Both the position numbers and the translations under genes were made by a program. The notes beneath the pieces were generated by a model. That model saw nothing but the letters and a program-made list of their open reading frames with translations, was not told where the DNA came from and did no database searches. A DNA stretch of 64,000 nucleotides from Variovorax terrae (GTDB taxonomy: Bacteria > Pseudomonadota > Gammaproteobacteria > Burkholderiales > Burkholderiaceae_C): positions 2,604,001 to 2,668,000 of the forward strand of contig NZ_JALGBI010000001.1 of the NCBI RefSeq assembly GCF_022809125.1, written 5' to 3'. Below are positions 15,298 through 29,871 of the stretch, in pieces (positions within the stretch are counted from its first letter, which is position 1; every line of letters starts with the position of its first letter).

Positions 15298-15903
15298 ATG
15301 TCCGGAGGGGGTTTCCACGTGCACGGCCCGCACGACCACGAGCTCGAGCACGCCGCGCAGGGAGAGCACGGCGAGACGGCGCACCACGGCGTCGGCGGCG
15401 GCAGCATGACCAACCAGATCGCGGTGTTCACGGCCCTCATCGCCACCGTGGGCGCGATCTTCGCCTACATGGGCGGCGCCACGCAGGCCAATGCCGGCCT
15501 GTTCAAGAACAACGCGGCCATCAAGAAGACCGAGGCCTCCAACCAGTGGAACTACTTCCAGGCCAAGAGCACCAAGCAGTCGCTGGCCGAGCTGGCGCGC
15601 GATCTTGCGCCCGAGGACAAGAAGACCGGCTACCAGGCCAAGGTGGAGCGCTACGAGAAGGAAAAGAACGAGATCAAGCTCGTGGCCGACAAGCTCGAGG
15701 GCGAATCCAAGGCCTGGGACGAGCAGTCCGACGCGCAGATGCACCAGCACCACCGCTGGGCCCAGGCCACCACGGCGCTGCAGGTGGCCATTGCCCTGGC
15801 GGCCATCGCGCTGCTGACCAAGAAGAAATGGCTGGAGTACGGCATGTTCGCCGTGGCGGGCATCGGCGTGGTGGTCGGCGGACTCGCCGCGCTACATATT
15901 TGA
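15298..15903 (+). CDS. DUF4337 membrane protein with His-rich N-terminus
   Basis: This 201-residue protein has AAGGAG upstream of ATG 15298. The first 35 residues are rich in His and Gly. A membrane helix spans about 40-60, a charged helical region about 65-150 is likely coiled-coil, and two more helices lie at about 157-175 and 181-200. This matches DUF4337, whose function is unknown. The stop TGA (15901-15903) lies inside a dispersed repeat copy beginning at 15898, so the last codon and stop come from the repeat. Confidence 0.8.
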   Translation: MSGGGFHVHGPHDHELEHAAQGEHGETAHHGVGGGSMTNQIAVFTALIATVGAIFAYMGGATQANAGLFKNNAAIKKTEASNQWNYFQAKSTKQSLAELARDLAPEDKKTGYQAKVERYEKEKNEIKLVADKLEGESKAWDEQSDAQMHQHHRWAQATTALQVAIALAAIALLTKKKWLEYGMFAVAGIGVVVGGLAALHI

Positions 15904-15957
15904 TAGCAAGCTATCGCCATCCGACCTGGACCTCGGGTCGGAATCACTGAAAAACGA
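15898..15957 (+). repeat. Dispersed ~60-bp repeat, copy A
   Basis: This copy begins ATTTGATAGCAAGC and aligns without gaps to copies at 17541, 29973, 51046 (reverse) and 41852 (reverse). Shared landmarks are ATAGCAA at the head and AC-N2-GGAC[A/C]T about 25-35 nt in. Here the head also forms a small hairpin, GATAGC-AA-GCTATC. It overlaps the end of the DUF4337 gene and supplies its stop codon. Confidence 0.8.
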
Positions 15958-16095
15958 CGTCCACTGCGTCGCTCGCCGGCATCCTGCCTGGCAGGGCGGC
16001 GCTTCCGAACGCGCGCGCCGCAAGTCTTGAGTCAGGTGCCGCCGTTCTGCTCGGCCGATGGCAGCAGCAGGGGCTTGGCTTCGCGTGGTTTATAT

Positions 16096-16122
16096 AATGA
16101 AATTAATTTCATTTAATAAAAC
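16096..16122 (+). promoter_or_regulatory. 18-bp perfect palindrome plus AATAAAAC, candidate IclR operator
   Basis: An 18-bp perfect palindrome (16096-16113, core ATGAAATTAATTTCAT) lies in an AT-rich patch just before the MmgE/PrpD gene. AATAAAAC follows at 16115-16122, its first base 10.5 bp from the palindrome centre. The same geometry recurs upstream of the FAD dehydrogenase at 18461-18485. The shared layout suggests one regulator, probably the IclR protein encoded between them, controls both promoters. Confidence 0.5.
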
Positions 16123-16125
16123 ACA

Positions 16126-17508
16126 ATGAATCACATGGATCTTCTTCCCGAGGCTTTGCTCGTGCGCCATCTCGCCGACCTGCAGCGCAAGCCGCTGCCG
16201 GCGGCCACGCGCGAACGCCTGGCGCAGGCCTTGCTGGACTGGTTCACGGCCGGCTGGTCCGCACAGGGCATGCCGGCCGCGCAGACGCTGCGCACGCTGG
16301 CGGCGGACTGCCTGGCAGGCCCCGGCACCGCGCCGGTCTTCGGCGGCGACAGCCTGCCGCCGCTGGCCGCCGGCTTCGCCAACGCCGGCATCGCCCATCT
16401 GCGCGAGATCGACGATGCGCACCGCGCCGCCATGCTGCACCCCGGCGTGGTCGCGGTCTCGCCCGTGCTCGCGCTGGCGGCCGCCCTGCCGCTGCCGCAG
16501 CGCCGCGTGGCCGACGCCATCATCGCGGGCTACGAGGTCGTGCTGCGCGTGGGCGAGGCGCTCGGTGCCCGGCACGCGGCGCGCTTCCATGCCACGGCCA
16601 CGGCCGGCGCGGTCGGCGCGGCGGCCGCGGCGGGCGTGGCGCTGGGCCTGTCGCCCGGGCAACTGCACCACGCCATGGGCATCGGCGCCACGCAGTCTGC
16701 GGGCCTGTGGCAACTGGTGGACGACGAGGCGCATGAGTCCAAGTCGCTGCACCCCGCGTTCGCGGTGCGCAACGGCATGATGGCGGCCTTCGCGGCGCGC
16801 GCCGGCCTGCCGGGCGCGCGGGCCTTCGTCTCGGGGCCGCGCGGCCTGTACGCGCTGCTTGCCAGCGACGGCCCGCTGGCGGCGCTGACCGCCGGCTTCG
16901 ATGCGCCCGAGCGCCTCAACACCACGACCGTCAAGGCCTGGCCCTGCTGCGCGCAGCTGTTCACGCCGCTGGACGCCGCGCGCGCCCTGATGGACGAGCA
17001 CCAGCCCGCGCCGCTGGAGATCGAGTCGGTGGAGGTGGTGATCTTTCCGCACGCGCTCAAGATCGCGGGCGTGGACTGGCCCGCCAAACCGGCCGAAACC
17101 TGCTTTTCGCTGCGCTATGTGCTGGCGACGCTGCTGCGCACGGGCGGCCTGCGCATCGAGGACATGGAGGCGCCGGACCTGGCCCAGCCCGCGCTGCTGG
17201 CGCTGGCGCGCAGGATCACGGTGTCCACCGACGAAACATTCCAGCGCGCCTTTCCCGAGAAGCGCCCCTGCCGCGTCACGATCACGATGCAGGACGGCCG
17301 GCGCTTCAGCGCGCTGCGCGAACTGCGGCGCGGCGACCCCGAAGACCCGTTCAGCTGGGACCAGCTCCAGGCCCGCATGCGCAGCTTTGCGCCGCGCATG
17401 GACGACGCGGCCGCCCGGCGCATCACGGCCTGGTGCGAGGGTTTTGCCGATGCGGGCCGCGACGACGCGCCCTGCACGCCCGACGCCGCGCTGTTCGGCC
17501 CGGCCTGA
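16126..17508 (+). CDS. MmgE/PrpD family protein (island A)
   Basis: This 460-residue protein matches MmgE/PrpD along its length: REIDDAHRAAMLHPGVV near residue 93, GYEVVLRVGEALG near 134, HATATAGAVGAAAAAG near 155 and a KSLHPAFAVRNGMMAAFAARAG block near 206. Members include 2-methylcitrate dehydratase and cis-aconitate decarboxylase, so an acid dehydratase, isomerase or decarboxylase role is likely. No clear ribosome site precedes ATG 16126; a second ATG at 16135 is possible. The gene is convergent with the IclR regulator and shares a promoter motif with the dehydrogenase operon at 18.5 kb. Confidence 0.88.
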   Translation: MNHMDLLPEALLVRHLADLQRKPLPAATRERLAQALLDWFTAGWSAQGMPAAQTLRTLAADCLAGPGTAPVFGGDSLPPLAAGFANAGIAHLREIDDAHRAAMLHPGVVAVSPVLALAAALPLPQRRVADAIIAGYEVVLRVGEALGARHAARFHATATAGAVGAAAAAGVALGLSPGQLHHAMGIGATQSAGLWQLVDDEAHESKSLHPAFAVRNGMMAAFAARAGLPGARAFVSGPRGLYALLASDGPLAALTAGFDAPERLNTTTVKAWPCCAQLFTPLDAARALMDEHQPAPLEIESVEVVIFPHALKIAGVDWPAKPAETCFSLRYVLATLLRTGGLRIEDMEAPDLAQPALLALARRITVSTDETFQRAFPEKRPCRVTITMQDGRRFSALRELRRGDPEDPFSWDQLQARMRSFAPRMDDAAARRITAWCEGFADAGRDDAPCTPDAALFGPA

Positions 17509-17627: not shown

Positions 17628-18407
17628 TCAGCCTCCCGGCTGCCAGTCGGCTGGCGGGCGGGTCGCGAAGCTCTGCTGGGCCAGCTCGCGGCGCACCACC
17701 TCCACCGCCTGCTGCTTGGCCGGGTCGCTGAAGCGCGAGGCCAGGCCGATCACCACCAGCGCGCCCAGGAACGTGCCGTCGCTGTCGAACACCGGCAGCG
17801 CCACCGACGTCATCTCGGCCACCCGCTCGGAGCGCGTCATCGCATAGCCCTTGTCGCGGATCTCGCGCGACTGCGGCGTCCTGCCGCCGGTGAAGGCGTT
17901 CAGCACATGGGCGGAGGAGCCGCCGTCCGCCAGCCGGATGCGGGTGCCGACCTCCACATGGTGGCGCACCTCCTTGGAGGTGTTCTCGCGGTACAGGCAG
18001 ACCCGCTCGTCGCCGCTGCGCACGTAGAACGCCACGGTCTCGCCGGTCTGGCGCATCACGCTGTGCAGCACTGGCTGCAGCCGCGTGCCCAGGTCGAAGG
18101 TGCTGCGGTAGAGCATGCCCATGTGCAGCAGCGCCGGCCCGGGCGCATAGCTGCCGCTGTCGAAGCGATGCACCATGCGCGCGCGCACCAGCACGCCCAG
18201 CAGGCGAAGCAGCGTGGCCTTGTCCAGGCCGGTCAGCTCGGCGAACTCGCGCAACGACAGGCGCAGCCGGTCTTCATTGAAGCTCTCGAGGATCGCGATA
18301 CCGCGCTCCAGCACGCCCGAGGGCGGCCTGGCCCCGGCCGCAGAGGCGTCGTCGGTCCCGCTGGCGGGTTGTTCTTCGGCAGGAGAAAGGGGGCGGGTGC
18401 GCGGCAT
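17628..18407 (-). CDS. IclR-family transcriptional regulator (island A)
   Basis: This 259-residue protein has a Pro/Ala-rich N-terminus, a winged helix-turn-helix at about residues 32-90 (VLERGIAILESF, then LREFAELTGLDKATLLRLLGVLVRARMV) and the IclR effector domain (about 105-250). It lies between the MmgE/PrpD gene (convergent) and the six-gene dehydrogenase operon (divergent). Both carry the same AT-rich motif, so it probably regulates both. The effector is unknown. Confidence 0.9.
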   Translation of the reverse strand: MPRTRPLSPAEEQPASGTDDASAAGARPPSGVLERGIAILESFNEDRLRLSLREFAELTGLDKATLLRLLGVLVRARMVHRFDSGSYAPGPALLHMGMLYRSTFDLGTRLQPVLHSVMRQTGETVAFYVRSGDERVCLYRENTSKEVRHHVEVGTRIRLADGGSSAHVLNAFTGGRTPQSREIRDKGYAMTRSERVAEMTSVALPVFDSDGTFLGALVVIGLASRFSDPAKQQAVEVVRRELAQQSFATRPPADWQPGG

Positions 18408-18460
18408 GCGGGGAGTCTAGCTTGACAGCAGAGCTGTGGGTCTTTTATAGTTTCGATTAT

Positions 18461-18485
18461 TAAAACATATTTTATTCAATAAAAC
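18461..18485 (+). promoter_or_regulatory. TAAAA-N4-TTTTA plus AATAAAAC, second candidate IclR operator
   Basis: An inverted repeat TAAAA-CATA-TTTTA (18461-18474) is followed by AATAAAAC (18478-18485). The distance from repeat centre to AATAAAAC is 10.5 bp, the same as at 16096-16122. Counted outward from AATAAAAC, 13 of the 22 preceding bases also match. The site lies between the divergent IclR gene and the dehydrogenase operon. Confidence 0.45.
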
Positions 18486-18495
18486 GCATAAGCTT

Positions 18496-19968
18496 ATGGA
18501 GACAAGCGCAGCCGCCTCGCCCGAAGCCTTTCTGGCCATGCTCGCCGGCATCGTGGGCGCCTCGCAGGTTCTCACCCGCGAGGAGGACGTGGCGCGCCAC
18601 GTGAGCGACTGGCGCCGCCGCTATCCGGGCCGGGCCCGCGCCGTGGTCCGGCCCGCGAACACGCAGGAGGTGTCGCGCGTGGTGGCCGCCTGCGCGGCGC
18701 ACGGCGTGCCCATCGTCCCGCAGGGCGGCAACACCGGGCTGGTCGGCGGCTCCACGCCCGACGCCTCGGGCACCGAGGTCGTGCTGAGCCTGTCCCGCAT
18801 GAACGCCGTGCGCAGCGTGGACCCGCTGGACGGCAGCCTGACGCTGGAGGCCGGCTGCACCGTGCTGGCCGCGCAGGAGGCCGCCGCCGCCGCGGGCCGG
18901 CTGTTCCCGCTGTCGCTGGCCTCGGAGGGCAGCGCCACCATCGGCGGCGTGCTGTCCACCAATGCCGGCGGCGAGCAGGTGCTGCGCTACGGCAACGCGC
19001 GCGACCTCGCGCTGGGCCTCGAAGTGGTGCTGCCCGACGGCCGCATCCTCGAGGCGCTGACCGCGCTGCGCAAGGACAACACGGGCTACGACCTCAAGCA
19101 CCTGTTCATCGGCGGCGAGGGCACGCTCGGCGTCATCACGGCCGCCACCTTCAAGCTGTTCGCGCCGCCGCGCAAGGTGGCCACGGCCTGGGTCGCCGTG
19201 CGCGACCCGCAGGCCGCGGTGGAGCTGCTGGCGCGGCTGACCGGTGCCGTCGGCGAGCGCGTGACGGCCTTCGAGCTGATCGGCCGCGAGGCGCTGTCCC
19301 AGGTGCTGGCCCACGCCGGCCCCGGCATGCGCAACCCGCTGGCCGACGCCCCCGCCTGGGCCGTGCTGTTCGATGTGTCCGAGGCCTCGGCCCGGCTGGA
19401 CCCGACGCCGGCCGTAGAAGAGGTGCTGGGCGCCGCCATGGACGATGGCCTGGTGGCCGACGCCGTGCTGGCCGCCACCGGCGCGCAGGCCCATGCGCTG
19501 TGGGCGCTGCGCGAGCATGTGCCCGAGGCGCAGCGGCTGGACGGCCCCTCGATCAAGCACGACATCTCGGTGGCCGTGTCGCGCATCCCCGCTTTCATCG
19601 CCGAGGCCGATGCGGCGCTGCAGGCCCTGATGCCCGGCATCCGCATCTGCTGCTTCGGCCATGTGGGCGACGGCAACCTGCACTACAACCAGAGCAAACC
19701 CGCCGGCATGGCCGACGCGGATTTCCTCGCGCGCGAAGACGCGGTGCACGACGCGGTGCACGCCATCGCCGCGCGCCTGCAGGGCTCGATCTCGGCCGAG
19801 CACGGCATCGGCCGGCTCAAGCAATCGGCCCTGCTGCACCACAAGCCCGCCGTGGCGCTGGACCTGATGGCCCGCATCAAGCAGGCCGTGGACCCCGCCA
19901 ACCTGTTCAACCCCGGCCGCCTGCTGCCGCGCGACCGGCTTTCATCCCACCAGGAACCTTCCCGATGA
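18496..19968 (+). CDS. FAD-linked D-2-hydroxyacid dehydrogenase (island A)
   Basis: This 490-residue paralogue of the 11630 gene has the same blocks: VPQGGNTGLVGGS near residue 74, IGGVLSTNAGGEQVLRYGNARDLALGLEVVLPDG, GEGTLGVITAATFKLF, CFGHVGDGNLHYN near 390, and SAEHGIG. It should oxidise a D-2-hydroxyacid to a 2-oxoacid. It opens a tight six-gene run and overlaps the next gene by 4 bp (ATGA). No obvious ribosome site precedes the ATG. Beside a mercaptopyruvate-type sulfurtransferase, D-3-mercaptolactate is one plausible substrate; this is inference. Confidence 0.88.
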   Translation: METSAAASPEAFLAMLAGIVGASQVLTREEDVARHVSDWRRRYPGRARAVVRPANTQEVSRVVAACAAHGVPIVPQGGNTGLVGGSTPDASGTEVVLSLSRMNAVRSVDPLDGSLTLEAGCTVLAAQEAAAAAGRLFPLSLASEGSATIGGVLSTNAGGEQVLRYGNARDLALGLEVVLPDGRILEALTALRKDNTGYDLKHLFIGGEGTLGVITAATFKLFAPPRKVATAWVAVRDPQAAVELLARLTGAVGERVTAFELIGREALSQVLAHAGPGMRNPLADAPAWAVLFDVSEASARLDPTPAVEEVLGAAMDDGLVADAVLAATGAQAHALWALREHVPEAQRLDGPSIKHDISVAVSRIPAFIAEADAALQALMPGIRICCFGHVGDGNLHYNQSKPAGMADADFLAREDAVHDAVHAIAARLQGSISAEHGIGRLKQSALLHHKPAVALDLMARIKQAVDPANLFNPGRLLPRDRLSSHQEPSR

Positions 19969-21326
19969 CCGTTTCCGTTTTCGACATGCAATCGCTCCAG
20001 CACCTGTGGAGCACCGATGAGCTGCGCGCCATCTTCTCCGAGGAGAACCGCGTGCAGAAGTGGCTCGACTTCGAGGCCGCGCTGGCCGCCGCCCAGGCCG
20101 AGCTGGGCATCATCCCGGCCGCCGCCGCGCAGGAGATCGCCGCGGCCGCCAAGGTGCAGAACATCGACCTCGCGAAGATGTCCGCCGAGATCCGCCGCAT
20201 CAAGCATTCGCTGGTGCCGGCGCTCAAGCAGTTGCAGGCCGCCTGCTCCAGGGAGAACGGCGAGTGGGTGCACTACGGCGCCACCACGCAGGACGTGGTG
20301 GACACCGGCGTGGCGCTGCAGCTCAAGGAGTTCCACGCGGTCGTGATACGCGACCTGCAGGCCGTGGGCCGGGAGCTCGCGCGCCTGGCCACGGCCCACC
20401 GCGACACGCCGATGGCGGGCCGCACGCACGGGGTGCAGGCACTGCCCATCACCTTCGGCCACAAGTGCGCGCTCTGGCTCGACGAGCTGGGCCGCCACCA
20501 CGAGCGCCTGGTGCAGGCCGCGCCGCGCGTGCTGGTCGGCATGCTGGCCGGCGCCGTCGGCAGCCAGGCTTCGCTGGGCGAGCAGGCCGAGCAGCTGGAG
20601 CGCCTGATGCTCGACAAGCTCGGCCTGGGCACGCCCGCCATCAGCTGGGCGCCCGCGCGCGACCGCTTCACCGAATACACGCTGCTGCTGGCGATGGTCG
20701 GCTCCACGCTCTCGAAGATCGGCAACGAGCTGTTCAACATGCAGCGCAACGAGTTCGGCGAGGTGGAAGAAGGCTTCTCCGAGGGCAAGCTGGGCTCGTC
20801 CACGATGCCGCACAAGCGCAACCCGACCTCGGCCGAGAACCTGGCCGGCCTGTCGCGCCCGCTGCGCTACAACGCCGCGATGATGGTCGAGGGCATGGTT
20901 CAGGAGGGCGAGCGCGACGGCATCGCCTGGAAGATGGAATGGAAGGCCCTGCCCGAGTGCTGCCTGATCGCCGGCGCCATGCTGTTCCAGGCCAGGAACC
21001 TGCTGGCAGGCCTCAAGGTCAACGCCGACGTGATGGCCGCCAACCTCGACAAGATGCGCGGCTACCTGCTGTCCGAGCGCGTGATGCTGGAGCTGTCCGA
21101 ACGCGTGGGCAAGCAGACCGCGCACGAATGGATCTACGAGGCCTCGATGCACGGCATCACCAGCAAGCTGAGCTTTGCCGACGCCATGCGCCAGCACAAG
21201 GGCCTGGGCGAACTGCTGACCGAAGCCGAGATCCAGGACCTGACCGACCCCGCGGCCTACCTGGGCCAGTGCGGCACCTCGGTGGACCGCGTGGTGGCGC
21301 AGCAGCAGGCCTGGCTGCAGGGCTGA
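19965..21326 (+). CDS. Fumarase/aspartase-superfamily lyase (ASL/CMLE-like)
   Basis: This 453-residue protein has the superfamily signature GSSTMPHKRNP at residues 277-287, with the catalytic Ser loop. It also has GRTHGVQALP (His155) and WVHYGATTQDVVDTG near 101, as in adenylosuccinate lyase and 3-carboxymuconate cycloisomerase. Members eliminate a C-N or C-O group from a succinyl unit, usually releasing fumarate. It is unlikely to be the housekeeping purB because it sits inside a catabolic operon, coupled by ATGA overlap to the dehydrogenase. A C-S cleaving role is possible from context but unproven. Confidence 0.85.
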   Translation: MTVSVFDMQSLQHLWSTDELRAIFSEENRVQKWLDFEAALAAAQAELGIIPAAAAQEIAAAAKVQNIDLAKMSAEIRRIKHSLVPALKQLQAACSRENGEWVHYGATTQDVVDTGVALQLKEFHAVVIRDLQAVGRELARLATAHRDTPMAGRTHGVQALPITFGHKCALWLDELGRHHERLVQAAPRVLVGMLAGAVGSQASLGEQAEQLERLMLDKLGLGTPAISWAPARDRFTEYTLLLAMVGSTLSKIGNELFNMQRNEFGEVEEGFSEGKLGSSTMPHKRNPTSAENLAGLSRPLRYNAAMMVEGMVQEGERDGIAWKMEWKALPECCLIAGAMLFQARNLLAGLKVNADVMAANLDKMRGYLLSERVMLELSERVGKQTAHEWIYEASMHGITSKLSFADAMRQHKGLGELLTEAEIQDLTDPAAYLGQCGTSVDRVVAQQQAWLQG

Positions 21327-21377
21327 AGCCGCAGCCCGGCGCAAGACACGCAACAACCCGCACCGGAGACAAAACCC

Positions 21378-22361
21378 ATGACCCCCCTTCTCCCCCTGCG
21401 CCGCCACATGGCGCTCGCACTGGCCGCCCTGCTGGGCCTGGCCGCCCTGCCCGCGCTGGCGGCCTACCCGGAGCAGCCCGTCAAGCTGGTGGTGGGCTTT
21501 CCGCCCGGCGGCGGCGGCGACCTGTATGGCCGCCTGATCGCCAATGCGCTGTCGAAGACCCTGGGCCAGACGGTGATCGTGGAGAACCGCACCGGCGCCG
21601 GCGGCAACATCGCGGCCGACGTGGTGGCCAAGGCCAAGCCCGATGGCTACACCCTGCTGCTGGCCATGAGCGGCAACATCGCCGTGTCGCCCGCACTCAA
21701 GCCGCAGACGCTGCCCTACAAGGTGCCGGAGGACTTCGAGCCCGTGGGCCTGATCCTGGAAGCGCCGCACGGCCTGTTCGTGGCCCACAACTCGCGCTTC
21801 AAGACGGCGCGCGAGGTGCTCGCCGCCGCCCGCACGCAGAAGCTGGCCTTTGCCTCCACCGGCACCGGCGCGGCCGCCCACATCGGCATGGAGATGGTCA
21901 AGCAGCGCGCCGGCGTGGACATCCTGCATGTGCCCTACAAGGGCTCGGGCCCGGCCATCACCGACATGCTGGGCGGGCAGGTGGACATGTTCTTCGCCAC
22001 CGCCTCGCCGCTGATCGGCCAGGTGCGCCAGGGCCAGCTCAAGGTGCTGGCCCTGACCGGCGACAGGCGCAGCCCCGCCCTGCCCGAGGTGCCCACCTTC
22101 AAGGAACTCGGCATCAACGTCGTGGTCACGCAGTGGTACGGCCTGGTGGCGCCGGCCGGCACGCCCAGGGACATCGTGCGCACCCTGTCGGAGCACCTGG
22201 CGCGCGCGCTGGCCACGCCCGAGGTACAGCAGGCGATCCGCAAGGACGCGGCGCTGGAAAAGAACGTGCCGGGCGACGAGTTCCGCCGCTACATCGTGGA
22301 CGACATCGCGCGCTACCGCGAGGCAGCCACGCCCGAGCTGATGAAGCAGATTTCACAATGA
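21378..22361 (+). CDS. Bug-family solute receptor (island A, first)
   Basis: This 327-residue receptor has a signal peptide ending PALA-AYPEQPV, then LVVGFPPGGGGDLYGR near residue 38, GAGGNIAADVVAKAKPDGYTLLL and VPYKGSGPAITDMLGGQVDMFF near 190. It closely resembles the Bug protein at 23290 (shared FPPGGGGDLYGR, PYKVPEDF and VTQWYGL/MTQWYGL motifs), so the pair looks like a duplication. It begins 51 bp after the lyase and its stop overlaps the first possible start of the sulfurtransferase. The ligand is probably the island's starting substrate. Confidence 0.93.
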   Translation: MTPLLPLRRHMALALAALLGLAALPALAAYPEQPVKLVVGFPPGGGGDLYGRLIANALSKTLGQTVIVENRTGAGGNIAADVVAKAKPDGYTLLLAMSGNIAVSPALKPQTLPYKVPEDFEPVGLILEAPHGLFVAHNSRFKTAREVLAAARTQKLAFASTGTGAAAHIGMEMVKQRAGVDILHVPYKGSGPAITDMLGGQVDMFFATASPLIGQVRQGQLKVLALTGDRRSPALPEVPTFKELGINVVVTQWYGLVAPAGTPRDIVRTLSEHLARALATPEVQQAIRKDAALEKNVPGDEFRRYIVDDIARYREAATPELMKQISQ

Positions 22362-22390
22362 CCCTCCGGCCCGCCTGGCCCTTTTTTCAC

Positions 22391-23260
22391 ATGACCTACC
22401 AGACCCTGATCTCCGCCACCGACCTCGCGCAGGCCCTGCACGGCCCCGAGGCTGCCCGCCCCCTGGTGCTCGACTGCAGCTTCGAGCTGGCCGACCTCTC
22501 GGCCGGGCGCCGCGCGCATGACGCCGGCCACATTCCCGGCGCGCGCTACGTGCACCTGGAAGACCAGCTCAGCGCGCCCAGGACCGGGCGCAACGGCCGC
22601 CACCCGCTGCCCAGCCGCGAGGACTTCGCCCGCACCCTGGCCGCACTGGGAGCCGGCGACGACACCCAGATCGTCATCTACGACAACGCCGGCGGCATGT
22701 ACGCCGCGCGCCTGTGGTGGATGCTGCGCTGGGCCGGCCACGCCGCCGCGGCCGTGCTCGACGGTGGCCTGCCGGCCTGGAAGGCGGCCGGCCAGCCGGT
22801 CAGCACCGACGAAACGCCTGCAGCGCCAGCCGCCGGCCGCTTCAGCCTGCGGCCGGCGCTGGTCACCACGGCCAGCTACGGCGAGGTGCGCGCCAACCTC
22901 GACACCGGCGCACGCCTGGTGCTGGACGCGCGCGCGCCCGACCGCTTCCGCGGCGAGAACGAAACGCTGGACCCGATCGGCGGCCACATTCCCGGCGCGC
23001 GCAACCGGCTGTTCCGCGACAACCTGGACGCCGACGGCCGCTTCAAATCCCCCGCCCAACTGCTCGGCGAGTTCCAGGCCCTCACCGGCGGCAGGCCGCC
23101 GGCCGAACTCATCAGCCAGTGCGGCTCGGGCGTGACGGCCTGCCACAACCTGCTGGCCCTGGAGATCGCGGGCCTTCGCGGCGCAGTGCTCTACCCCGGC
23201 TCATGGAGCGAATGGAGCGCCCAGCCCGGCGCGCCCATCGCCACCGGCCCGCAGGCCTGA
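22391..23260 (+). CDS. Two-domain sulfurtransferase (3-mercaptopyruvate type)
   Basis: This 289-residue protein has two rhodanese domains, each with a GHIPGAR motif (residues 47 and 198). The catalytic loop ISQCGSGVTAC (Cys244) has the CG-S-GVTA form typical of 3-mercaptopyruvate sulfurtransferases rather than the CRKG form of thiosulfate rhodaneses. The enzyme would move sulfur from 3-mercaptopyruvate to an acceptor, leaving pyruvate. The start could be ATG 22358, which overlaps the previous stop; I prefer 22391, where family-like sequence begins. Lying between two near-identical Bug genes and before a molybdoenzyme, it hints at sulfur metabolism. Confidence 0.88.
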   Translation: MTYQTLISATDLAQALHGPEAARPLVLDCSFELADLSAGRRAHDAGHIPGARYVHLEDQLSAPRTGRNGRHPLPSREDFARTLAALGAGDDTQIVIYDNAGGMYAARLWWMLRWAGHAAAAVLDGGLPAWKAAGQPVSTDETPAAPAAGRFSLRPALVTTASYGEVRANLDTGARLVLDARAPDRFRGENETLDPIGGHIPGARNRLFRDNLDADGRFKSPAQLLGEFQALTGGRPPAELISQCGSGVTACHNLLALEIAGLRGAVLYPGSWSEWSAQPGAPIATGPQA

Positions 23261-23289
23261 CGCTCTCACCCCAACACCGGAGACCTTCG

Positions 23290-24264
23290 ATGATGCGCAA
23301 ACGCGACCTGTTCCGCCACGGCGCGGCCTTGCTGACCACCTGCCTCGGCCTGCTGGCAGGCGCCGCGCACGCGGCCTACCCGGAGCAGCCGGTCCGGCTG
23401 GTGGTGGGCTTCCCGCCCGGCGGCGGCGGCGACCTGTACGGCCGCACCCTCGCCAGCGCGCTGGGCAAGCACCTCGGCCAGACCATGATCGTGGACAACA
23501 AGGCCGGTGCCGGCGGCAACATCGCCGCGGAGACCGTGGCGCGCGCCCGGCCCGACGGCTACACCCTGATCCTCGCCATGAGCGGCAACCTGGGCAGCGC
23601 GCCGGCCATCCGTCCCAGCCTGCCCTACAAGGTGCCCGAGGACTTCGTGCCCATCGCCCAGCTCGTGGAGACGCCGTTCGGCCTGATGGTCGGCAGCAAC
23701 TCGAAGATCAAGACGGTGCAGGAATACGTCGCGGCGGCCAAGGGCGGCAAGCTCACCTATGCCTCCACCGGCACCGGCGGCGCGGCACAGATCGTGATGG
23801 AGATGGTCAAGCAGCAGGCCGGCCTCGACATCCTGCACATCCCCTACAAGGGCTCGGGCCCGGCGCTCAACGATCTGTACGGCGGGCTGGTCGACAGCTT
23901 CTTCGCGCCCTACACCCCGCTCATGGGCCAGATCGTTGGCGGCAAGCTGCGCCTGCTGGCCGTGAGCACGGCCAAACGCGTGGCGGCCATGCCCAACGTG
24001 CCCACGCTCAAGGAGTCGGGCATCGACGTGGTGATGACGCAGTGGTACGGCCTGGCCGCGCCCGCGGGCACGCCCAAGGACGTGGTGGACACGCTCTCGC
24101 GCGCGGTCAAGGCCGCCTTGCAGGACCCCGAGCTGATCAAGGTCTACCGCGCCGACGGCGCGCAGGAATCCACGCTGGCCGGCGATGCGTTCCGCAGCTT
24201 CATCGTGAAGGACATCGCCAACTACAAGCGCGCCGTCGAACGCGGCAACCTGAAAGCAGAATAG
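23290..24264 (+). CDS. Bug-family solute receptor (island A, second)
   Basis: This 324-residue receptor has a signal peptide ending AAHA-AYPEQPV and the same FPPGGGGDLYGR, PDGYTLILAMSGN and IPYKGSGPALNDLYGG blocks as the Bug at 21378, its apparent tandem paralogue. It begins 29 bp after the sulfurtransferase stop with GGAGA upstream. Two similar receptors in one operon could bind two related ligands, such as a sulfide and its sulfoxide; this is inference. Confidence 0.93.
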   Translation: MMRKRDLFRHGAALLTTCLGLLAGAAHAAYPEQPVRLVVGFPPGGGGDLYGRTLASALGKHLGQTMIVDNKAGAGGNIAAETVARARPDGYTLILAMSGNLGSAPAIRPSLPYKVPEDFVPIAQLVETPFGLMVGSNSKIKTVQEYVAAAKGGKLTYASTGTGGAAQIVMEMVKQQAGLDILHIPYKGSGPALNDLYGGLVDSFFAPYTPLMGQIVGGKLRLLAVSTAKRVAAMPNVPTLKESGIDVVMTQWYGLAAPAGTPKDVVDTLSRAVKAALQDPELIKVYRADGAQESTLAGDAFRSFIVKDIANYKRAVERGNLKAE

Positions 24265-24304
24265 CGAGACCGCCGCTGGATCGCCCCGCCCAGACCCCCG
24301 TGAT

Positions 24305-26638
24305 GTGAACACCATGCCGCCCACCGATACGCCCAGCCTCGCCATGAAGCCCCACAGCGCCCACTGGGGCGTGTTCTCCGCGGCCTGGGACGGCCAGCGC
24401 CTCACGGTGCAGCCGCACCCGGGCGACCCCGACCCGAACCCGCTGCTGCAGAACTTTCCCGATGCGCTGCGGCACCGCGTGCGCGTGACCACGCCCATGG
24501 TGCGGCGCGGCTGGCTGGAGCGCGGCCCCGGGCCCGACGCCACTCGCGGCTGCGACGACTACGTGCCCCTGCCCTGGCCCGAGGCGCTCGACCTCGTGGC
24601 GCGGGAGCTGCGCCGCGTGGAGCAGGCGCATGGCATCGGCGCGATCTTCGGCGGCTCCTACGGCTGGTCGAGCGCGGGGCGCTTCCACCACGCGCAAAGC
24701 CAGGTGCACCGCTTCCTCAACACCGCCCTGGGCGGCTACGTGCGCTCGGTCAACAGCTACAGCGCGGGCGCCTCGGCCGTCATCCTGCCGCACATCCTGG
24801 GCAGCATGGACGAAGTGGCGCGCCGCAACGTGACCTGGGAGCAGATCGTCGAGCACAGCGACGTGGTGCTGGCCTTCGGCGGCATGGCGCTGCGCAACTC
24901 GCGCGTGGCCTCGGGCGGCATCAGCCGCCACATCGAGCGCGAATCGATGCGCCAGGCGGCCGAGCGCGGCTGCCGCTTCGTCAACATCAGCCCGCTGCGC
25001 CCCGACCTGCCCGAGGAAGCGCGCGCCGAGTGGCTGGCCGCGCGCCCCGGCACCGACACCGCCCTCATGCTGGGCCTGGTGCACACGCTGGTGAGCGAAG
25101 GCCGGCACGACCGCGACTTCATCGCGCGCTACTGCGACGGCTGGGATACCTTCGAGGACTACCTGCTCGGCCGCAGCGACGGCACGCCCAAGAGCGCCGC
25201 CTGGGCATCGGCCCTTTGCGGCCTGCCCGAGCGCCGCATCGCCGAGCTCGCGCGCGAACTGCACGGCAAGCGCGTGCTGGTGGTGGTGGCCCATTCGCTG
25301 CAGCGCGCCGAGCATGGCGAGCAGCCGGTGTGGATGGGCGCCGTGCTGGCCGCCGCCCTGGGCCAGCTCGGCCTGCCCGGCGGCGGCTACAACTACGCGC
25401 TGGGCACGCTGGCCCACTACGGCAAGCGCCTGAACGCCGTGCCCAGCGCCGCGCTGCCGCAGGGCACCAATGCCGTGAAGGAGTTCATCCCGGTGGCGCG
25501 CATTGCCGACATGCTGCTGCACCCGGGCGAGCCCTTCGACTACAACGGCCAGCGCCGCAGCTACCCGCACGTGCGCCTGGCCTACTGGGCCGGCGGCAAC
25601 CCGTTCCACCACCACCAGGACCTGAACCGCCTGCGCGAGGCCTTCCGCCGCCTGGACACGCTGATCGTGCACGAGATCGCCTGGACCGCCACCGCGCGCC
25701 ATGCCGACATCGTTCTGCCCTGCACCATGACGCTGGAGCGCGAGGACATCGGCGCCACGCCAACCGACCCGCTGATGGTGGCGATGCACCGCATCGCCGA
25801 GCCGCACGGGTTGAGCCGCGACGACTACGACATCTTCGCCGACCTGGCCGAGCGCCTGGGACAACGCGATGCGTTCACCGAAGGCCGCGACACCCGCGGC
25901 TGGCTGCGCCACCTGTACGAGAAGACCCGCGCCGCACTCGAGGCGCGCGGCGACGAGGCGCCCGACTTCGACACCTTCTGGGCGCGCGGCGAGCTGCGCC
26001 TGCCGCAGCGGCCCGACGACGGCGGCATCCTGCGCGCCTTCCGCGACGACCCGGCGGGCCAGCCGCTGCCCACGCCCAGCGGCAAGGTGCAGATCAGCTC
26101 GCCCACCGTGGCCGGCTTCGGCTACGCCGACTGCCCGGGCCACCCGGCCTGGCTGCCCAAGCAAGACGTGCCCGACGCGCGCCACCCGCTGTTCCTGATT
26201 GCCAATCAGCCGGCCACGCGGCTGCACAGCCAGCTCGACTTCGGTGGCCACAGCACGGCCAGCAAGCGCCAGGGCCGCGAAGTCTGCCGCCTGCACCCGG
26301 CCGATGCCGCCGCGCGCGGCATCGCCGACGGCGACATCGTGCGCCTGTTCAACGACCGCGGCGCCTGCCTGGCTTCAGTGCGCGTGACCGACGAGCTGAT
26401 GCCCGGCGTGGTGCAGTTGCCCACCGGCGCCTGGTACGACCCGCAGGACCCCGCCGCCGAGCGGCCGCTGTGCGTGCACGGCAACCCCAACGTGCTCACG
26501 CGCGACCACGGCACCTCGTCGCTGGCGCAAGGCTGCAGCGGCCAGTTGACGGCCGTGCAGGCCGAGCGCTTCGACGGCCCGCTGCCGGCCATCCGCGCCT
26601 ACGAGCCGCCGTCGCCAGTCTCGCGCTCCGACGTCTAA
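24305..26638 (+). CDS. BisC/DMSO-reductase-family molybdoenzyme, cytoplasmic type
   Basis: This 777-residue protein belongs to the TMAO/DMSO/biotin-sulfoxide reductase group. Residues 116-124 (GGSYGWSSA) hold the Tyr119 and Trp121 seen in DMSO-reductase active sites, and Ser153 in NSYSAGAS aligns with the serine ligand of molybdenum. A molybdopterin-dinucleotide domain fills the C-terminus (ANQPATRLHSQLD near 636, GNPNVLTRDHGTSSLAQG near 735). No Tat signal and no N-terminal iron-sulfur cysteines are visible, as in cytoplasmic BisC. It closes the six-gene run, 40 bp after the second Bug. Reduction of a sulfoxide or N-oxide substrate is likely. Confidence 0.85.
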   Translation: MNTMPPTDTPSLAMKPHSAHWGVFSAAWDGQRLTVQPHPGDPDPNPLLQNFPDALRHRVRVTTPMVRRGWLERGPGPDATRGCDDYVPLPWPEALDLVARELRRVEQAHGIGAIFGGSYGWSSAGRFHHAQSQVHRFLNTALGGYVRSVNSYSAGASAVILPHILGSMDEVARRNVTWEQIVEHSDVVLAFGGMALRNSRVASGGISRHIERESMRQAAERGCRFVNISPLRPDLPEEARAEWLAARPGTDTALMLGLVHTLVSEGRHDRDFIARYCDGWDTFEDYLLGRSDGTPKSAAWASALCGLPERRIAELARELHGKRVLVVVAHSLQRAEHGEQPVWMGAVLAAALGQLGLPGGGYNYALGTLAHYGKRLNAVPSAALPQGTNAVKEFIPVARIADMLLHPGEPFDYNGQRRSYPHVRLAYWAGGNPFHHHQDLNRLREAFRRLDTLIVHEIAWTATARHADIVLPCTMTLEREDIGATPTDPLMVAMHRIAEPHGLSRDDYDIFADLAERLGQRDAFTEGRDTRGWLRHLYEKTRAALEARGDEAPDFDTFWARGELRLPQRPDDGGILRAFRDDPAGQPLPTPSGKVQISSPTVAGFGYADCPGHPAWLPKQDVPDARHPLFLIANQPATRLHSQLDFGGHSTASKRQGREVCRLHPADAAARGIADGDIVRLFNDRGACLASVRVTDELMPGVVQLPTGAWYDPQDPAAERPLCVHGNPNVLTRDHGTSSLAQGCSGQLTAVQAERFDGPLPAIRAYEPPSPVSRSDV

Positions 26639-26701: not shown

Positions 26702-27835
26702 CTACCAATCCTGGACCGAGCCGTCGACGCCGATTCGCATGTTCGGCACGATGTCGGTGGCGGGGAGCCGCATCAAGGCCTCGTCGTTGAACTCGATGCC
26801 GATGCCGGGCCCCTCGGGCACTTCAAGATAGCCGCCAACCAGGCGCAGCGGCGCCTTCACGAGGTCACGCTTCGGGTAGTCGGACTCACCCGTGTACTCC
26901 TGCAGTGCGAAGTTCGGGATGCAGGCATCGAGCTGCACGCAGGCGGCCGTTGACACAGGCGACAAGGGGTTGTGGGGAATCACCTTGACGTGGCGGGCCT
27001 CCGCGAGCGCAGCCGCTTTCTTGCTGCCGCTCAGGCCCATGCACAGGCACAGGTCCGGGCGGATAAAGTCGCAGCCTCCGCTGGCCAGCAGTTCCTGGAA
27101 CTGGAAGATGGAGGTGAGCCGCTCGCCCGTGGCGATCGGCAAGCGGCACCGGGCCTGGAGCTCGCCCATCAGGGCCGGGCTGTCCGGAAGCATCGGGTCT
27201 TCGTAGAAATAGGGATGAAAGGGCTCCAGCCGCGCGGCCAGGGCAACGGACTCGGCGGGATTCATCTGGCGATGGAGTTCGATGCACAGGTCGACATCGC
27301 CGGCGAGGGCCTCGTGAACGGCCCCGACGCGCTGCACTGCGTCGGACGCCCAGGACTCGAAGGATTGGTGCAGGTGGTAGTCCGCAGAAAAGGGCGAGAA
27401 GCGGATGGCCGTGAAGCCCGCGGCTTTTTTCTGCAGCGCATCGCTCACCAGATCGTCGAGCGAGTCGCCATGTGCGTGGATGTAGCAACGCACCCGGTCC
27501 CGCGTCTTGCCCCCCATCAGTTCGTAGACGGGCACGCCCAGGCGCTTGCCCTTGATGTCCCACAGCGCAATGTCGATGGCCGAGATGGCGCCCGAGATCA
27601 GCGCGCCCATGAAATGGGAGCTCCGCTGGAGCAACTGCGCGTGGTGCTCGATAAGGGAGGGATCTTTGCCCTTCAGATAGGGCTCCATGGCGTGCAGCGT
27701 GGCCTGCGTCGGGCCAGGCCACCCATGCACACCGGCTTCGCCGATGCCGACCGTTCCGTCTTCGCACCAGATGCGCAGCAGGCACCAGCGGTCGACACGG
27801 AAGGTCTCTATTTTTTCAATGCGCGTAGCTTTCAT
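26702..27835 (-). CDS. Enolase-superfamily sugar-acid dehydratase (MR/MLE type)
   Basis: This 377-residue protein has the mandelate-racemase layout: an N-terminal capping domain (1-115) and a barrel. Metal ligands fit LCIELH near residue 193, YEDP near 219 and GERLTS near 245, with the catalytic His in VIPHNPLSP near 294. This pattern matches the galactonate/gluconate/mannonate dehydratase branch, which removes water from a sugar acid. It lies 9 bp after a Bug receptor on the same strand, suggesting uptake and dehydration of one sugar-acid-like substrate. Exact specificity cannot be read. Confidence 0.88.
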   Translation of the reverse strand: MKATRIEKIETFRVDRWCLLRIWCEDGTVGIGEAGVHGWPGPTQATLHAMEPYLKGKDPSLIEHHAQLLQRSSHFMGALISGAISAIDIALWDIKGKRLGVPVYELMGGKTRDRVRCYIHAHGDSLDDLVSDALQKKAAGFTAIRFSPFSADYHLHQSFESWASDAVQRVGAVHEALAGDVDLCIELHRQMNPAESVALAARLEPFHPYFYEDPMLPDSPALMGELQARCRLPIATGERLTSIFQFQELLASGGCDFIRPDLCLCMGLSGSKKAAALAEARHVKVIPHNPLSPVSTAACVQLDACIPNFALQEYTGESDYPKRDLVKAPLRLVGGYLEVPEGPGIGIEFNDEALMRLPATDIVPNMRIGVDGSVQDW

Positions 27836-27844
27836 TTGTTGAGT

Positions 27845-28831
27845 TCACTCGGGCTTGACGCCCGCGTCGAGGATGATCTTGCTCCATCGAGCCGCTTCGG
27901 ATTTCTGGAATGCCGCGAACTGCCCGGGCGTGTCGGACGACAGCGCGCCCATGCCCATCGCTTCGAACTTGGCGTGCACGTCGGGCTGCCTGCGCGCCTT
28001 CTGCCACTCGGCATTGAGCCGCTGGATGGCCTGCGCGGGCGCATGTCTGGGCGCGTAGAGACCGATCCATCCGGTGGAGTGAAAACCCTTCACGCCGGCT
28101 TCGGCAACGGTGGGCACGTCCGGCAACGGGGCGAGGCGGGTGTCGCCGGTCACGCCCAGCAGGCGCAGCTTTCCGCTCTTGACGTGAGGCTCCACCAGGT
28201 TGTAGCCCGTGAACATCATCTGCACCTGCCCGCCGAGCAGATCGGTCAGGGCCTGGCCGTCTCCCTTGTAGGGCACGTGGGTCAGCCGGGTGCCCGTCAT
28301 GCTGGCGAACAGCTCGCCCGACAGGTGTGAATTCGTGCCTTGCCCGCCGGACCCGAAGGACAGCTCGCCGGGCTTCTGTTTGGCCAGTGCGATCAACTCG
28401 GCAACGCTGCGCGCAGGCACCTGGGCATTGACGACCAGCACCACGGGCCCGCCTGCCAGGAGCGCAATGGGGGCGAAATCGCGCTCCGGCACGAAGTTCA
28501 ACTGCTTGTACAGATAGGGCGCGACGATCATCACCGTGGGCGCGGTGATCAGCAAGGTGTAGCCGTCCGCAGCGGACTTGGCCACATAGTCGGCCGCCAG
28601 GGTTCCACCCGCTCCCGGCCGGTTGTCCACGAAGAAGCTCTGCCCGGTGGCTTGCGTCATCTTCTGCGCGAAGATGCGCGCGAAATAGTCGGCAGCACCG
28701 CCCGCGTTGACGCCGACCACCACCTTCACCGGCTTGCTGGGGTAGTCGGCTGCCTGCGCCCAGGCGGCCGGGCCGGTTGCCAGGACGGCGGCGGCGCCAG
28801 GCATCAGCTTGAAGAGCTTTCTTCGGTTCAT
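27845..28831 (-). CDS. Bug-family solute receptor (dehydratase operon)
   Basis: I start at ATG 28831 because GGAGACAAGAAG precedes it; an in-frame start further up is less likely. The 328-residue product has a twin-Arg-like MNRRKLF start and signal peptide ending WAQA-ADYPSKPV. VVVGVNAGGAADYFARIFAQ, DNRPGAGG, AADGYTLLI and VPYKGDGQALTDLLGG follow. It heads a two-gene operon with the enolase-superfamily dehydratase and diverges from a LysR gene, so its ligand is probably the dehydratase's sugar acid. Confidence 0.92.
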   Translation of the reverse strand: MNRRKLFKLMPGAAAVLATGPAAWAQAADYPSKPVKVVVGVNAGGAADYFARIFAQKMTQATGQSFFVDNRPGAGGTLAADYVAKSAADGYTLLITAPTVMIVAPYLYKQLNFVPERDFAPIALLAGGPVVLVVNAQVPARSVAELIALAKQKPGELSFGSGGQGTNSHLSGELFASMTGTRLTHVPYKGDGQALTDLLGGQVQMMFTGYNLVEPHVKSGKLRLLGVTGDTRLAPLPDVPTVAEAGVKGFHSTGWIGLYAPRHAPAQAIQRLNAEWQKARRQPDVHAKFEAMGMGALSSDTPGQFAAFQKSEAARWSKIILDAGVKPE

Positions 28832-28891
28832 CTTCTTGTCTCCGTGCGTTGTCTCGATGGGAGCGATCTTCATCGTACGAGTGATAGAGAA

Positions 28892-28919
28892 CAAATAGAA
28901 TATCGGCTCCTCCTATTTG
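28892..28919. promoter_or_regulatory. CAAATAG-N14-CTATTTG inverted repeat, candidate LysR operator
   Basis: A perfect 7-bp inverted repeat lies in the 101-bp gap between the divergent Bug and LysR genes, ending 14 bp before the LysR start. Spacing and position fit a LysR-type recognition site controlling both promoters. Confidence 0.5.
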
Positions 28920-28932
28920 AATCTTCTATACC

Positions 28933-29871
28933 GTGGCCGTGTCAGCCTCCGTTCTCGCTTCGCGGCTTGTGGTGCGGGCGCGCTTGCGCCATCTTCAGGT
29001 GCTCGTGAAAGTGGCGGAGTTGGGGAGCGTCAAGCGGGCTGCGGAAGCCATCGGGCTCACGCAGCCCTCCACGACCCAGGCGCTCGCGGATCTGGAACAA
29101 CTGCTCGAGTGCACGCTGTTCGACAGGCATGCGCGAGGCATGCATCCGACGCCCATCGCCCTCGCGGTTCTGCCGCTCGCGCGCAGGATGCTCGACGCGC
29201 TCAACGACTGCGCGGAGGCGGTGGTGGCCTTCTCGGCCGAGGGCCGCAGCCTGGTGCGCATCGCGGCCCTGTCTGGCGCCGTGACGGGCATCCTGGCCAA
29301 GGCCTTGCCGGTCTTCAGCCAGCAGCACCCGGACATCCTGCTGCAGATTCAGGAAGCAGACATCGAACAGATCGGCGCCTTGATGGCGGGCGGCGGCCTC
29401 GACATGGTCTTCTGCCGGCAACCCCCTGTTGCCACGGAGGGCTGGCGCTTCGAGCCGCTGCTCGACGATGAGTTCGTGGTCATCGCCGCGCCACACCATC
29501 CGCTTGCCGGCAGGAAGCGGCTGACCTTCAAGGCGCTACGCGACGAAATCTGGCTGACCTCGCCCGTTGCATCTGCGCCGCGCCGGACCCTCGACCAGTG
29601 GAGCGCCGCGCAAGGCATCGAGCCCAGGCAGCGCCTGATTAGCACCCGCTCGATGGCTATCGTGTGGGCGGCCCTCGTGCACGAGCGATGCGTGTGCCTC
29701 GTGCCCCTCAGCATCGCCAGCCAGTTGCTGGACGCGGGGCAACTGGTGCGGCTGAACATAGCCGTGCCTTATGCGTTCGAGCCGATAGGAATGATGACGC
29801 CGATCGATTCATCAGGCTTGGCGACGCAGAAACTTCAGGCGTTCCTGCTGAGTTTCGAGAAGGCTAGGTGA
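28933..29871 (+). CDS. LysR-family transcriptional regulator
   Basis: This 312-residue protein starts at GTG 28933. The winged helix-turn-helix covers about residues 18-76 (LRHLQVLVKVAELGSVKRAAEAIGLTQPSTTQALADLEQLL), followed by an effector domain from about 105. It resembles the GbpR/CbhR-like LysR group that controls sugar-acid or Bug-linked operons. It diverges from the Bug-dehydratase pair and very likely regulates it. Confidence 0.9.
   Translation: MAVSASVLASRLVVRARLRHLQVLVKVAELGSVKRAAEAIGLTQPSTTQALADLEQLLECTLFDRHARGMHPTPIALAVLPLARRMLDALNDCAEAVVAFSAEGRSLVRIAALSGAVTGILAKALPVFSQQHPDILLQIQEADIEQIGALMAGGGLDMVFCRQPPVATEGWRFEPLLDDEFVVIAAPHHPLAGRKRLTFKALRDEIWLTSPVASAPRRTLDQWSAAQGIEPRQRLISTRSMAIVWAALVHERCVCLVPLSIASQLLDAGQLVRLNIAVPYAFEPIGMMTPIDSSGLATQKLQAFLLSFEKAR

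Follow-up and report, generated by a model that had tools for sequence, protein, structure and literature searches.

A candidate IclR-controlled operon for S-(2-succino) thioether catabolism in Variovorax terrae

We analyzed a 64,000-nucleotide stretch of the Variovorax terrae genome (here called the window; bases 2604001-2668000 of contig 1, in a genome of 4.93 Mb) for a group of genes encoding a fumarase-superfamily lyase, an FAD-linked 2-hydroxyacid dehydrogenase, a mercaptopyruvate-type sulfurtransferase, a BisC-type oxide reductase, two Bug/TctC receptors, an MmgE/PrpD family protein (PrpD), and an IclR-family regulator. This gene set is conserved across beta- and alphaproteobacteria, and its recurrence is beyond chance. 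We propose that it is an IclR-controlled catabolic operon for the S-(2-succino) thioether of a 2-hydroxy-acid thiol, a scheme that we consider to have about an even chance of being correct as a whole. The substrate would most simply be S-(2-succino)-3-mercaptolactate, a tricarboxylate and the nitrogen-free counterpart of succinated cysteine, together with its sulfoxide. We infer the substrate, the direction of the reactions, every activity, and the order of the steps.

Loci encoding relatives of the lyase were located with six exact peptide words, a procedure biased toward close relatives that returned 52 loci (numbered with the prefix L). The window clade comprises 45 of them (L020-L063 and L065), with L064 and L066-L071 counted as sisters, and partner genes were identified by tblastn. 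Among the 45 window-clade loci, genes for PrpD and TctC are each present at 43, the FAD dehydrogenase at 41, the sulfurtransferase and IclR at 40 each, and BisC at 35; a persulfide dioxygenase-like gene occurs at 14 and an AhpD/CMD-like gene at 13. At the 14 sister-clade loci, tblastn gave no match to PrpD, IclR, sulfurtransferase, BisC, CMD, or persulfide dioxygenase, a single match to the FAD dehydrogenase, and TctC matches at 12. A preliminary description of this DNA had recommended a search of genomes for the gene order; the set does recur at most of the 45 loci, but its order is reshuffled in the alphaproteobacteria. Roseomonas-type loci (e.g., L055) run lyase, sulfurtransferase, receptor, persulfide dioxygenase, PrpD, and FAD enzyme, followed by divergent IclR and BisC, and the Celeribacter loci (L062 and L063) run CMD, lyase, TctC, TctB, TctA, sulfurtransferase, PrpD, and FAD enzyme. 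Since the set is kept while the order changes, a common function is indicated rather than mere inheritance of neighbors. The operon is rare within the order, with a match at E ≤ 1e-150 in 9 of 300 genomes, the genome of V. terrae included; of the others, one is at 81% (probably the same record as L037) and seven are at 55 to 57%. A survey of the phylum found matches in 3 of 398 genomes, again including this one, and the remaining two are loci of the type encoding 2SL, the known lyase considered below.

The preliminary description had reported six plus-strand genes with overlaps or gaps of 51 bp or less, and both the spacing (intergenic gaps of -4, 51, 29, 29 [to 23290], and 40 bp) and the domain searches agree with it (Table 1). 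However, it began the unit at 18496 and overlooked what lies upstream. The unit in fact starts upstream of that position, and the PrpD gene and the divergent IclR gene belong to it, because the neighborhood is conserved and the operator described below is common to its parts. The two Bug receptors, formerly called near-identical, share 61% identity over 310 amino acids (aa). Genes in the relatives were called with a simple caller, and their start positions are approximate. A search for RNA elements gave no match at gathering thresholds.

Table 1. Positions of the genes and regulatory sites of the candidate operon, numbered within the window
Feature	Position	Strand	Details
Operator before PrpD	16087..16122	no strand	Palindromes 16087-16103 and 16106-16122, 19 bp apart; overlaps TATATAAT stretch at 16091
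MmgE/PrpD family gene, 460 aa, candidate succinyl-carbon epimerase	16126..17508	+	PF03972 and PF19305; 43/45 loci
IclR-family regulator, 259 aa, divergent to main operon	17628..18407	-	PF09339 and PF01614; 40/45 loci
Promoter-like TTGACA (18422-18427), 18-bp spacer, TATAGT (18446-18451)	18422..18451	+	Kept across 33 aligned IclR/FAD intergenic regions
Operator before FAD gene	18450..18485	no strand	Palindromes 18450-18466 and 18469-18485, 19 bp apart
FAD-linked D-2-hydroxyacid dehydrogenase, 490 aa	18496..19968	+	PF01565 (FAD_binding_4) and PF02913 (FAD-oxidase_C); 41/45 loci
Fumarase-superfamily lyase, 453 aa, proposed S-(2-succino)thioether C-S lyase	19965..21326	+	PF00206 (Lyase_1) and PF10397 (ADSL_C)
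Bug/TctC receptor 1, 327 aa	21378..22361	+	PF03401
Two-domain rhodanese, mercaptopyruvate-type sulfurtransferase, 289 aa, CGSGVTA	22391..23260	+	PF00581; 40/45 loci
Bug/TctC receptor 2, 323 aa; start 23290 possible too	23293..24264	+	PF03401; missing in some relatives
BisC-type S/N-oxide reductase, 777 aa, molybdopterin enzyme	24305..26638	+	TIGR00509; 35/45 loci

When 33 IclR/FAD intergenic regions, among them that of the window, are aligned, the TTGACA-TATAGT promoter is seen to be conserved, and after it comes an AT-rich palindromic stretch within otherwise GC-rich DNA. This operator consists of two palindromes 19 bp apart with a consensus near TTTYATTnAATRAAA, and the same pair lies directly 5' of PrpD. 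Pairs scoring at least 20 of 28 are found at 42 of the 45 window-clade loci, at none of the 14 sister-clade loci, and in none of ten sequences resampled from the window with a first-order Markov model. At the three loci where no pair is found (L033, L040, and L054), IclR is absent as well; L057 and L061 likewise have no IclR in view, although the operator site is present there. The placement of the pair varies among groups: in betaproteobacterial loci it precedes both PrpD and the FAD enzyme (or the lyase, if the FAD gene is absent), in Roseomonas types the lyase and in 4 of 6 also BisC, and in Celeribacter the unit of CMD and lyase. Where a persulfide dioxygenase gene is divergent from PrpD (e.g., L020), the operator pair sits between the two. 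Because they have this pair in common, PrpD, BisC, and, where present, the persulfide dioxygenase appear to belong to a single regulon. We infer that IclR is the protein that binds it.

The spacing and specificity of the boxes were assessed as well. At a score of at least 22, the 45 loci hold 78 pairs at a spacing of 19, with nine other spacings yielding 1 to 34. The two highest of these counts, 34 (15 bp) and 21 (20 bp), could both arise from the repetitive nature of the palindrome. In the V. terrae genome, the pattern TTTYATTNAATRAAA occurs without mismatch only at the second boxes of the PrpD and FAD operators. With up to 2 mismatches, a single box has 21 sites per strand, versus 2 for the reversed pattern, and one of the 19 imperfect sites belongs to the PrpD pair.

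The lyase had been placed in the fumarase superfamily, and its Lyase_1 and ADSL_C domains and intact catalytic motifs confirm that placement. The S-T-M-P-H-K loop positions, His155, and His81, which we take to be catalytic, are invariant in 55 of 55 rows, including two 2SL-locus proteins and one XcbD. The best NCBIfam model is XcbD, 3-sulfopropionylcysteine synthase (NF052536), at 534.9 bits, below the cut-off of 600; the Nocardioides XcbD scores 687.6. In a tree of 38 of the 84 rows, a 31-row clade with 100/100 support unites the window clade, the sisters, four 2SL-locus proteins, two XcbD proteins, and a Proteus mirabilis protein, as opposed to seven other lyases that are the whole outgroup; the 2SL label of the four proteins rests on locus type, with assayed 2SL sequences absent from the tree. 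The window lyase lies inside this clade, though outside the 4-row branch of 2SL-locus proteins. The rows dropped were L002-L005, L008, L010, L012, L014-L016, L019, L083, and 34 window-clade or Cupriavidus rows. An earlier 75-row tree with very long branches grouped the window clade, sisters, 2SL-locus proteins, and XcbD with a Shimodaira-Hasegawa-like approximate likelihood ratio (SH-aLRT) of 93. Identity is 45 to 47% to 2SL-locus proteins, 41 to 44% to XcbD, and 36 to 41% to the three outgroup rows measured; a Variovorax relative of the lyase is at 89-91%.

Both described relatives in this clade make or break C-S bonds. 2SL converts 2SNAC to fumarate and N-acetylcysteine, according to the cited part of Hillmann 2022 (PMC9706529). 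Among the matches listed in the plasmid search (40 of 144 records), a Pantoea plasmid carries an scm/yxe-type locus with the lyase, a GNAT acetyltransferase, an amino-acid ABC transporter, and an amidohydrolase, and loci of this type are also present in Niallia and two gammaproteobacterial genomes. XcbD of Nocardioides and Mycolicibacterium lies in the coenzyme M operon, beside phosphosulfolactate synthase and a pyridoxal phosphate (PLP) enzyme. Because of this kinship, the window lyase probably also cleaves a C-S bond, to judge from sequence. The organosulfur pathway of the preliminary description thus gains from the grouping with C-S enzymes, as it does from the sulfurtransferase and persulfide dioxygenase-like genes of the related loci. 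That description had left the published C-S lyase 2SL unmentioned.

Several relatives of the lyase lie in other settings. In P. mirabilis (L072:3685-10818), a 49% identical lyase and an MmgE/PrpD gene stand beside a divergent cystathionine beta-lyase gene and DcuC, and a mercaptopyruvate sulfurtransferase gene (328 bits, cut-off 250), possibly a housekeeping copy, is found further on. An Escherichia coli plasmid (NZ_CP069439; L073:6557-10806) holds a decayed lyase relative with MmgE/PrpD and PLP-enzyme pieces. The sister-clade lyases of L082-L085 (~56% identical) are followed by genes for an NAD D-2-hydroxyacid dehydrogenase (L082-L084), Bug receptors, and TctA, with zero sulfur genes; this is a different, likewise unnamed catabolic operon.

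The CGSGVTA loop of the sulfurtransferase is present in all 39 rows, one Celeribacter protein included. Its Cys is residue 244 from the start at 22391, as originally reported, and residue 255 in a 300-aa call from 22358. The CGSG loop marks mercaptopyruvate sulfurtransferases (MSTs) rather than thiosulfate rhodaneses. Human MST is the best solved relative, and the loop and Arg residues of the two proteins align. The Celeribacter protein that occupies the same slot is 38% identical to that of the window and passes the MST model NF008557 (254.6, versus a cut-off of 250). The family is common, and the operon sulfurtransferase is a dedicated member of it. Genes resembling persulfide dioxygenase, of Blh/ETHE1 type, lie near the lyase at 12 of 52 loci when called genes are clustered instead of searched by tblastn; two relatives score 373.0 and 333.6 against the Blh model NF040641, below its cut-off of 625, and span only ~140-423 of this two-part model. 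These genes would handle the expected product of the sulfurtransferase. A putative release of sulfane sulfur by the operon is supported by comparison.

The enzyme announced as a D-2-hydroxyacid dehydrogenase belongs to the FAD-linked D-2-hydroxyglutarate/lactate/glycolate family, but it misses the GlcD equivalog cut-off (TIGR00387; 245.6 versus 567.9). Its best solved relatives are 3pm9, a “putative oxidoreductase,” and the D-2-hydroxyglutarate dehydrogenase 6lpn. Additional hydroxyacid genes are found in Cupriavidus (L034; L-2-hydroxyglutarate-oxidase-like) and Paraburkholderia (L054; NAD D-2-hydroxyacid dehydrogenase). At L030, which has no FAD enzyme, an LldD-like gene overlaps a PrpD paralogue ~8 kb from the lyase and may be unrelated. 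In humans, conversion of mercaptopyruvate to mercaptolactate is known, as described in part in PMC9856076.

The best solved relative of PrpD is Bacillus subtilis IRG1 (129.7 bits), followed by iminodisuccinate (IDS) epimerase (92 bits), whose bases are given as His99 and Tyr145 in the portion of PMC7347537 cited. The His99 equivalent is kept in 42 of 42 PrpD rows. An epimerase would be sensible, by our own reasoning, because spontaneous succination should yield both stereoisomers. PrpD would be only a candidate for this role, given the absent Tyr (see below).

BisC, described earlier as a BisC-like sulfoxide reductase, is indeed best matched by TIGR00509 among 21 models (931.1 bits, below the cut-off of 1017.55). 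Its SYGW and SYS motifs are invariant in 36 of 36 rows and align with the dimethyl sulfoxide (DMSO) reductase 1dms; we presume that they supply the active-site Tyr, Trp, and Ser ligand. The protein aligns with mature DMSO reductase from residue 18 onward. BisC would be a cytosolic enzyme acting on an S-oxide, because no export signal is seen by eye (no predictor run). It was also considered as exclusive to the operon, a view rejected by close relatives on plasmids in stretches without an annotated lyase. On one of them, from Pantoea sp. SS70 (L101:4084-8974), the BisC relative is directly behind an amino-acid ABC transporter, which suggests import and reduction of an amino-acid S-oxide.

In the proposed pathway, the Bug/TctC receptors would capture the multi-carboxylate thioether, with which the TctCBA transporter genes of Celeribacter fit. 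Cytosolic BisC would reduce the sulfoxide to the thioether, and PrpD may interconvert the succinyl stereoisomers. The lyase would then eliminate the thiol, yielding fumarate and 3-mercaptolactate, and the FAD dehydrogenase would oxidize 3-mercaptolactate to 3-mercaptopyruvate, from which the sulfurtransferase would form pyruvate and a persulfide. Where a persulfide dioxygenase is encoded, it would convert the persulfide to sulfite; pyruvate and fumarate would enter central metabolism. Mercaptolactate oxidation and sulfur transfer would supply a pull, because the 2SL equilibrium strongly favors the adduct (PMC9706529, in the part cited). Only tentatively, and at well under even confidence, do we extend this to a full regulon of beta- and alphaproteobacteria, switched by IclR and using S-(2-succino)-mercaptolactate and its sulfoxide, in which the PrpD epimerase would make both stereoisomers usable, a dedicated C-S lyase would open the molecule, sulfur would exit via mercaptopyruvate to persulfide and sulfite, and both carbon halves would reach central metabolism.

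A number of observations weigh against this scheme. The window sulfurtransferase misses the NF008557 cut-off (124.2 of 250), a paralogue elsewhere in the genome is 53% identical and has a CGSGV loop, and of 300 genomes of the order, 196 encode relatives at E ≤ 1e-75. Persulfide dioxygenase is missing at 31 of the 45 loci, and in the V. terrae genome itself it has just a distant relative (41% across a portion of the protein; E 7e-19). The Tyr145 equivalent of PrpD is Ala in the window protein and Tyr in 2 of 42 rows, as read from the nearest column of a gap-aligned stretch. The FAD enzyme is missing at L028 and L030, and the sulfurtransferase at three operon-bearing loci (L057, L058, and L061). 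BisC is missing at ten loci (among them L031, whose contig is short) and is therefore probably accessory. The lyase stands alone at L033 and L040 (Paracidovorax cattleyae and oryzae), where only 3 and 4.5 kb of the upstream side are covered. Finally, sister-clade lyases pair with an NAD 2-hydroxyacid dehydrogenase at 3 of 14 loci that contain zero sulfur genes; thus, pairing of a lyase with a 2-hydroxyacid dehydrogenase need not mean sulfur.

Substrates other than a mercaptolactate adduct were considered. The operon could act on a sulfur-free N- or O-linked succinate (of the iminodisuccinate type, or carboxymethyloxysuccinate), giving fumarate and an amino or hydroxy acid, with the FAD enzyme oxidizing the hydroxy acid and the sulfur genes as passengers. 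The lyase of the iminodisuccinate pathway and carboxymethyloxysuccinate lyase are precedents. The combination of MmgE/PrpD and lyase recalls the iminodisuccinate epimerase/lyase pair, and IDS epimerase is a distant relative of PrpD. The sister-clade loci, with a lyase and an NAD 2-hydroxyacid dehydrogenase but zero sulfur genes, also speak for it. We nevertheless regard this explanation as improbable, given the sulfurtransferase at 40 of 45 loci, its differently rooted MST counterpart in Celeribacter, the persulfide dioxygenase-like gene at 14, and BisC at 35. A different S-(2-succino) substrate, such as succinated cysteine or thiodisuccinate, seems unlikely, though less so: the C-S bond would be cut, but the thiol would not be mercaptolactate, or the FAD enzyme would first oxidize the intact substrate. 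The kinship of the lyase to C-S enzymes fits this equally, and the P. mirabilis neighborhood, with its cystathionine beta-lyase and DcuC, looks as if cysteine were produced there. However, the GNAT and amidohydrolase of 2SL-type loci, and likewise a cystathionine beta-lyase, occur at 0 of the 45 loci, which instead have the 2-hydroxyacid dehydrogenase (41 of 45) and TctC (43 of 45), where 2SL loci have amino-acid ABC transporters.

Three further explanations turn on what the lyase and PrpD most resemble. The best named solved relatives are the trans-aconitate decarboxylase Tad1 for the lyase and IRG1, a cis-aconitate decarboxylase, for PrpD, which would fit an aconitate/itaconate-type route for an imported tricarboxylate. 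This is very improbable, since 3c8t, an unnamed “fumarate lyase,” outscores Tad1 (328 versus about 284 bits), the top NCBIfam model is XcbD, such a route would leave the sulfur genes without an explanation, and scans of the window genes show zero itaconate-degradation enzymes adjoining the unit. That XcbD match could itself point to a sulfonate route akin to coenzyme M biosynthesis, with the lyase acting on sulfoacrylate or sulfopropionylcysteine. We give this route equally little credence: the cut-off is missed, the phosphosulfolactate synthase and PLP enzyme of XcbD loci are absent among the scanned window genes, and MST and persulfide dioxygenase act on sulfane sulfur, not on sulfonate. The lyase as a spare adenylosuccinate lyase is hardly credible. 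It passes the PurB model TIGR00928 (369.0, versus a cut-off of 326.2), another point against a C-S role, and source annotations label its relatives adenylosuccinate lyase. But two 2SL-locus proteins pass that model too (383.3 and 370.5), so that it is unspecific, and the neighbors are catabolic with an operator in common. The window lyase was rejected as the cell's PurB, since the protein of another locus in the genome (L002) fits the PurB model NF006764 far better (713.2, versus 86.7 for the window lyase and a cut-off of 446).

Some features near the operon were noted apart from the proposed pathway. A convergent cluster at 26702-29871 contains a mandelate-racemase/galactonate-dehydratase-like gene, a third Bug receptor gene, and a LysR-like gene. 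The racemase-like gene and the third receptor gene (26702-28894, minus strand) were rejected as members of the unit, as a racemase-like match occurs at 0 of 45 loci. At L034 (12438-12800) and 12 other loci, a gene in or beside the operon encodes a small CxxC-containing protein of the AhpD/CMD family, which perhaps acts in thiol redox. Beyond BisC in L030, a CysB-family regulator is encoded (15848-16777; 458.8 bits, cut-off 402, with only L030 scanned), and L028 has a gene of the same cluster beyond BisC (19980-20909). The lone lyases of L033 (3007-4368) and L040 (4477-5835) are 81 to 82% identical to that of the window and have neither partner genes nor an operator pair in the stretch covered.

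Wherever fumarate builds up, it reacts with thiols, and succinated cysteine serves as a marker of disease. If the proposed S-(2-succino) thioether pathway is correct, it would be a second route built on a lyase, one that has a dedicated regulator and exits through mercaptopyruvate and persulfide, and would show what becomes of nitrogen-free succinated thiols in soil. The C-S lyases would gain a new member and the MmgE/PrpD proteins a candidate epimerase, and names would be corrected, as many lyase relatives are labeled adenylosuccinate lyase. The breakdown of S-succino compounds by a lyase of the fumarase superfamily (2SL) is already known; the bacterial routes for succinated cysteine described so far run via N-acetylation, as far as the cited parts of PMC9706529 and PMC12757645 go. 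The preliminary description knew of no operon with this gene set, and open-licence full-text literature likewise yielded no description of the gene set, the operator, or the sulfurtransferase exit. Term searches of organosulfur proteomics papers found nothing in PMC6370202 and only other clusters in PMC5373536.

Of known systems, SseA/MPST shares with the window sulfurtransferase two rhodanese domains, the CGSGVTA loop, and aligned Arg residues, but the window protein falls below the model cut-off and is a dedicated operon copy. XcbD of bacterial coenzyme M synthesis resembles the window lyase in C-S bond chemistry and clade and differs in its biosynthetic context and model score. In the iminodisuccinate module, too, an MmgE/PrpD enzyme and a lyase that forms fumarate act together on a succinyl compound; the bond is C-N rather than C-S. 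Its epimerase, as partly described in PMC7347537, has a Tyr145 that is not conserved in window-type PrpD. The Advenella mercaptosuccinate cluster is similar in its organosulfur dicarboxylate catabolism and its rhodanese-related sulfurtransferase gene, but it has a thiol dioxygenase, cystathionine beta-lyase, and ABC transporter, and the available part of its description (PMC5373536) does not name a fumarase-type lyase, PrpD, or BisC. The scm/yxe loci of 2SL share a fumarase-superfamily lyase, the release of fumarate from an S-succino thioether, and the need for a downstream drain (PMC9706529, as cited in part). There, however, the enzyme acts on N-acetylated succinated cysteine, with an acetyltransferase, a deacetylase, and an amino-acid ABC transporter; such genes are present at 0 of the 45 window-type loci, which instead encode PrpD, the FAD dehydrogenase, the sulfurtransferase, BisC, and TctC.

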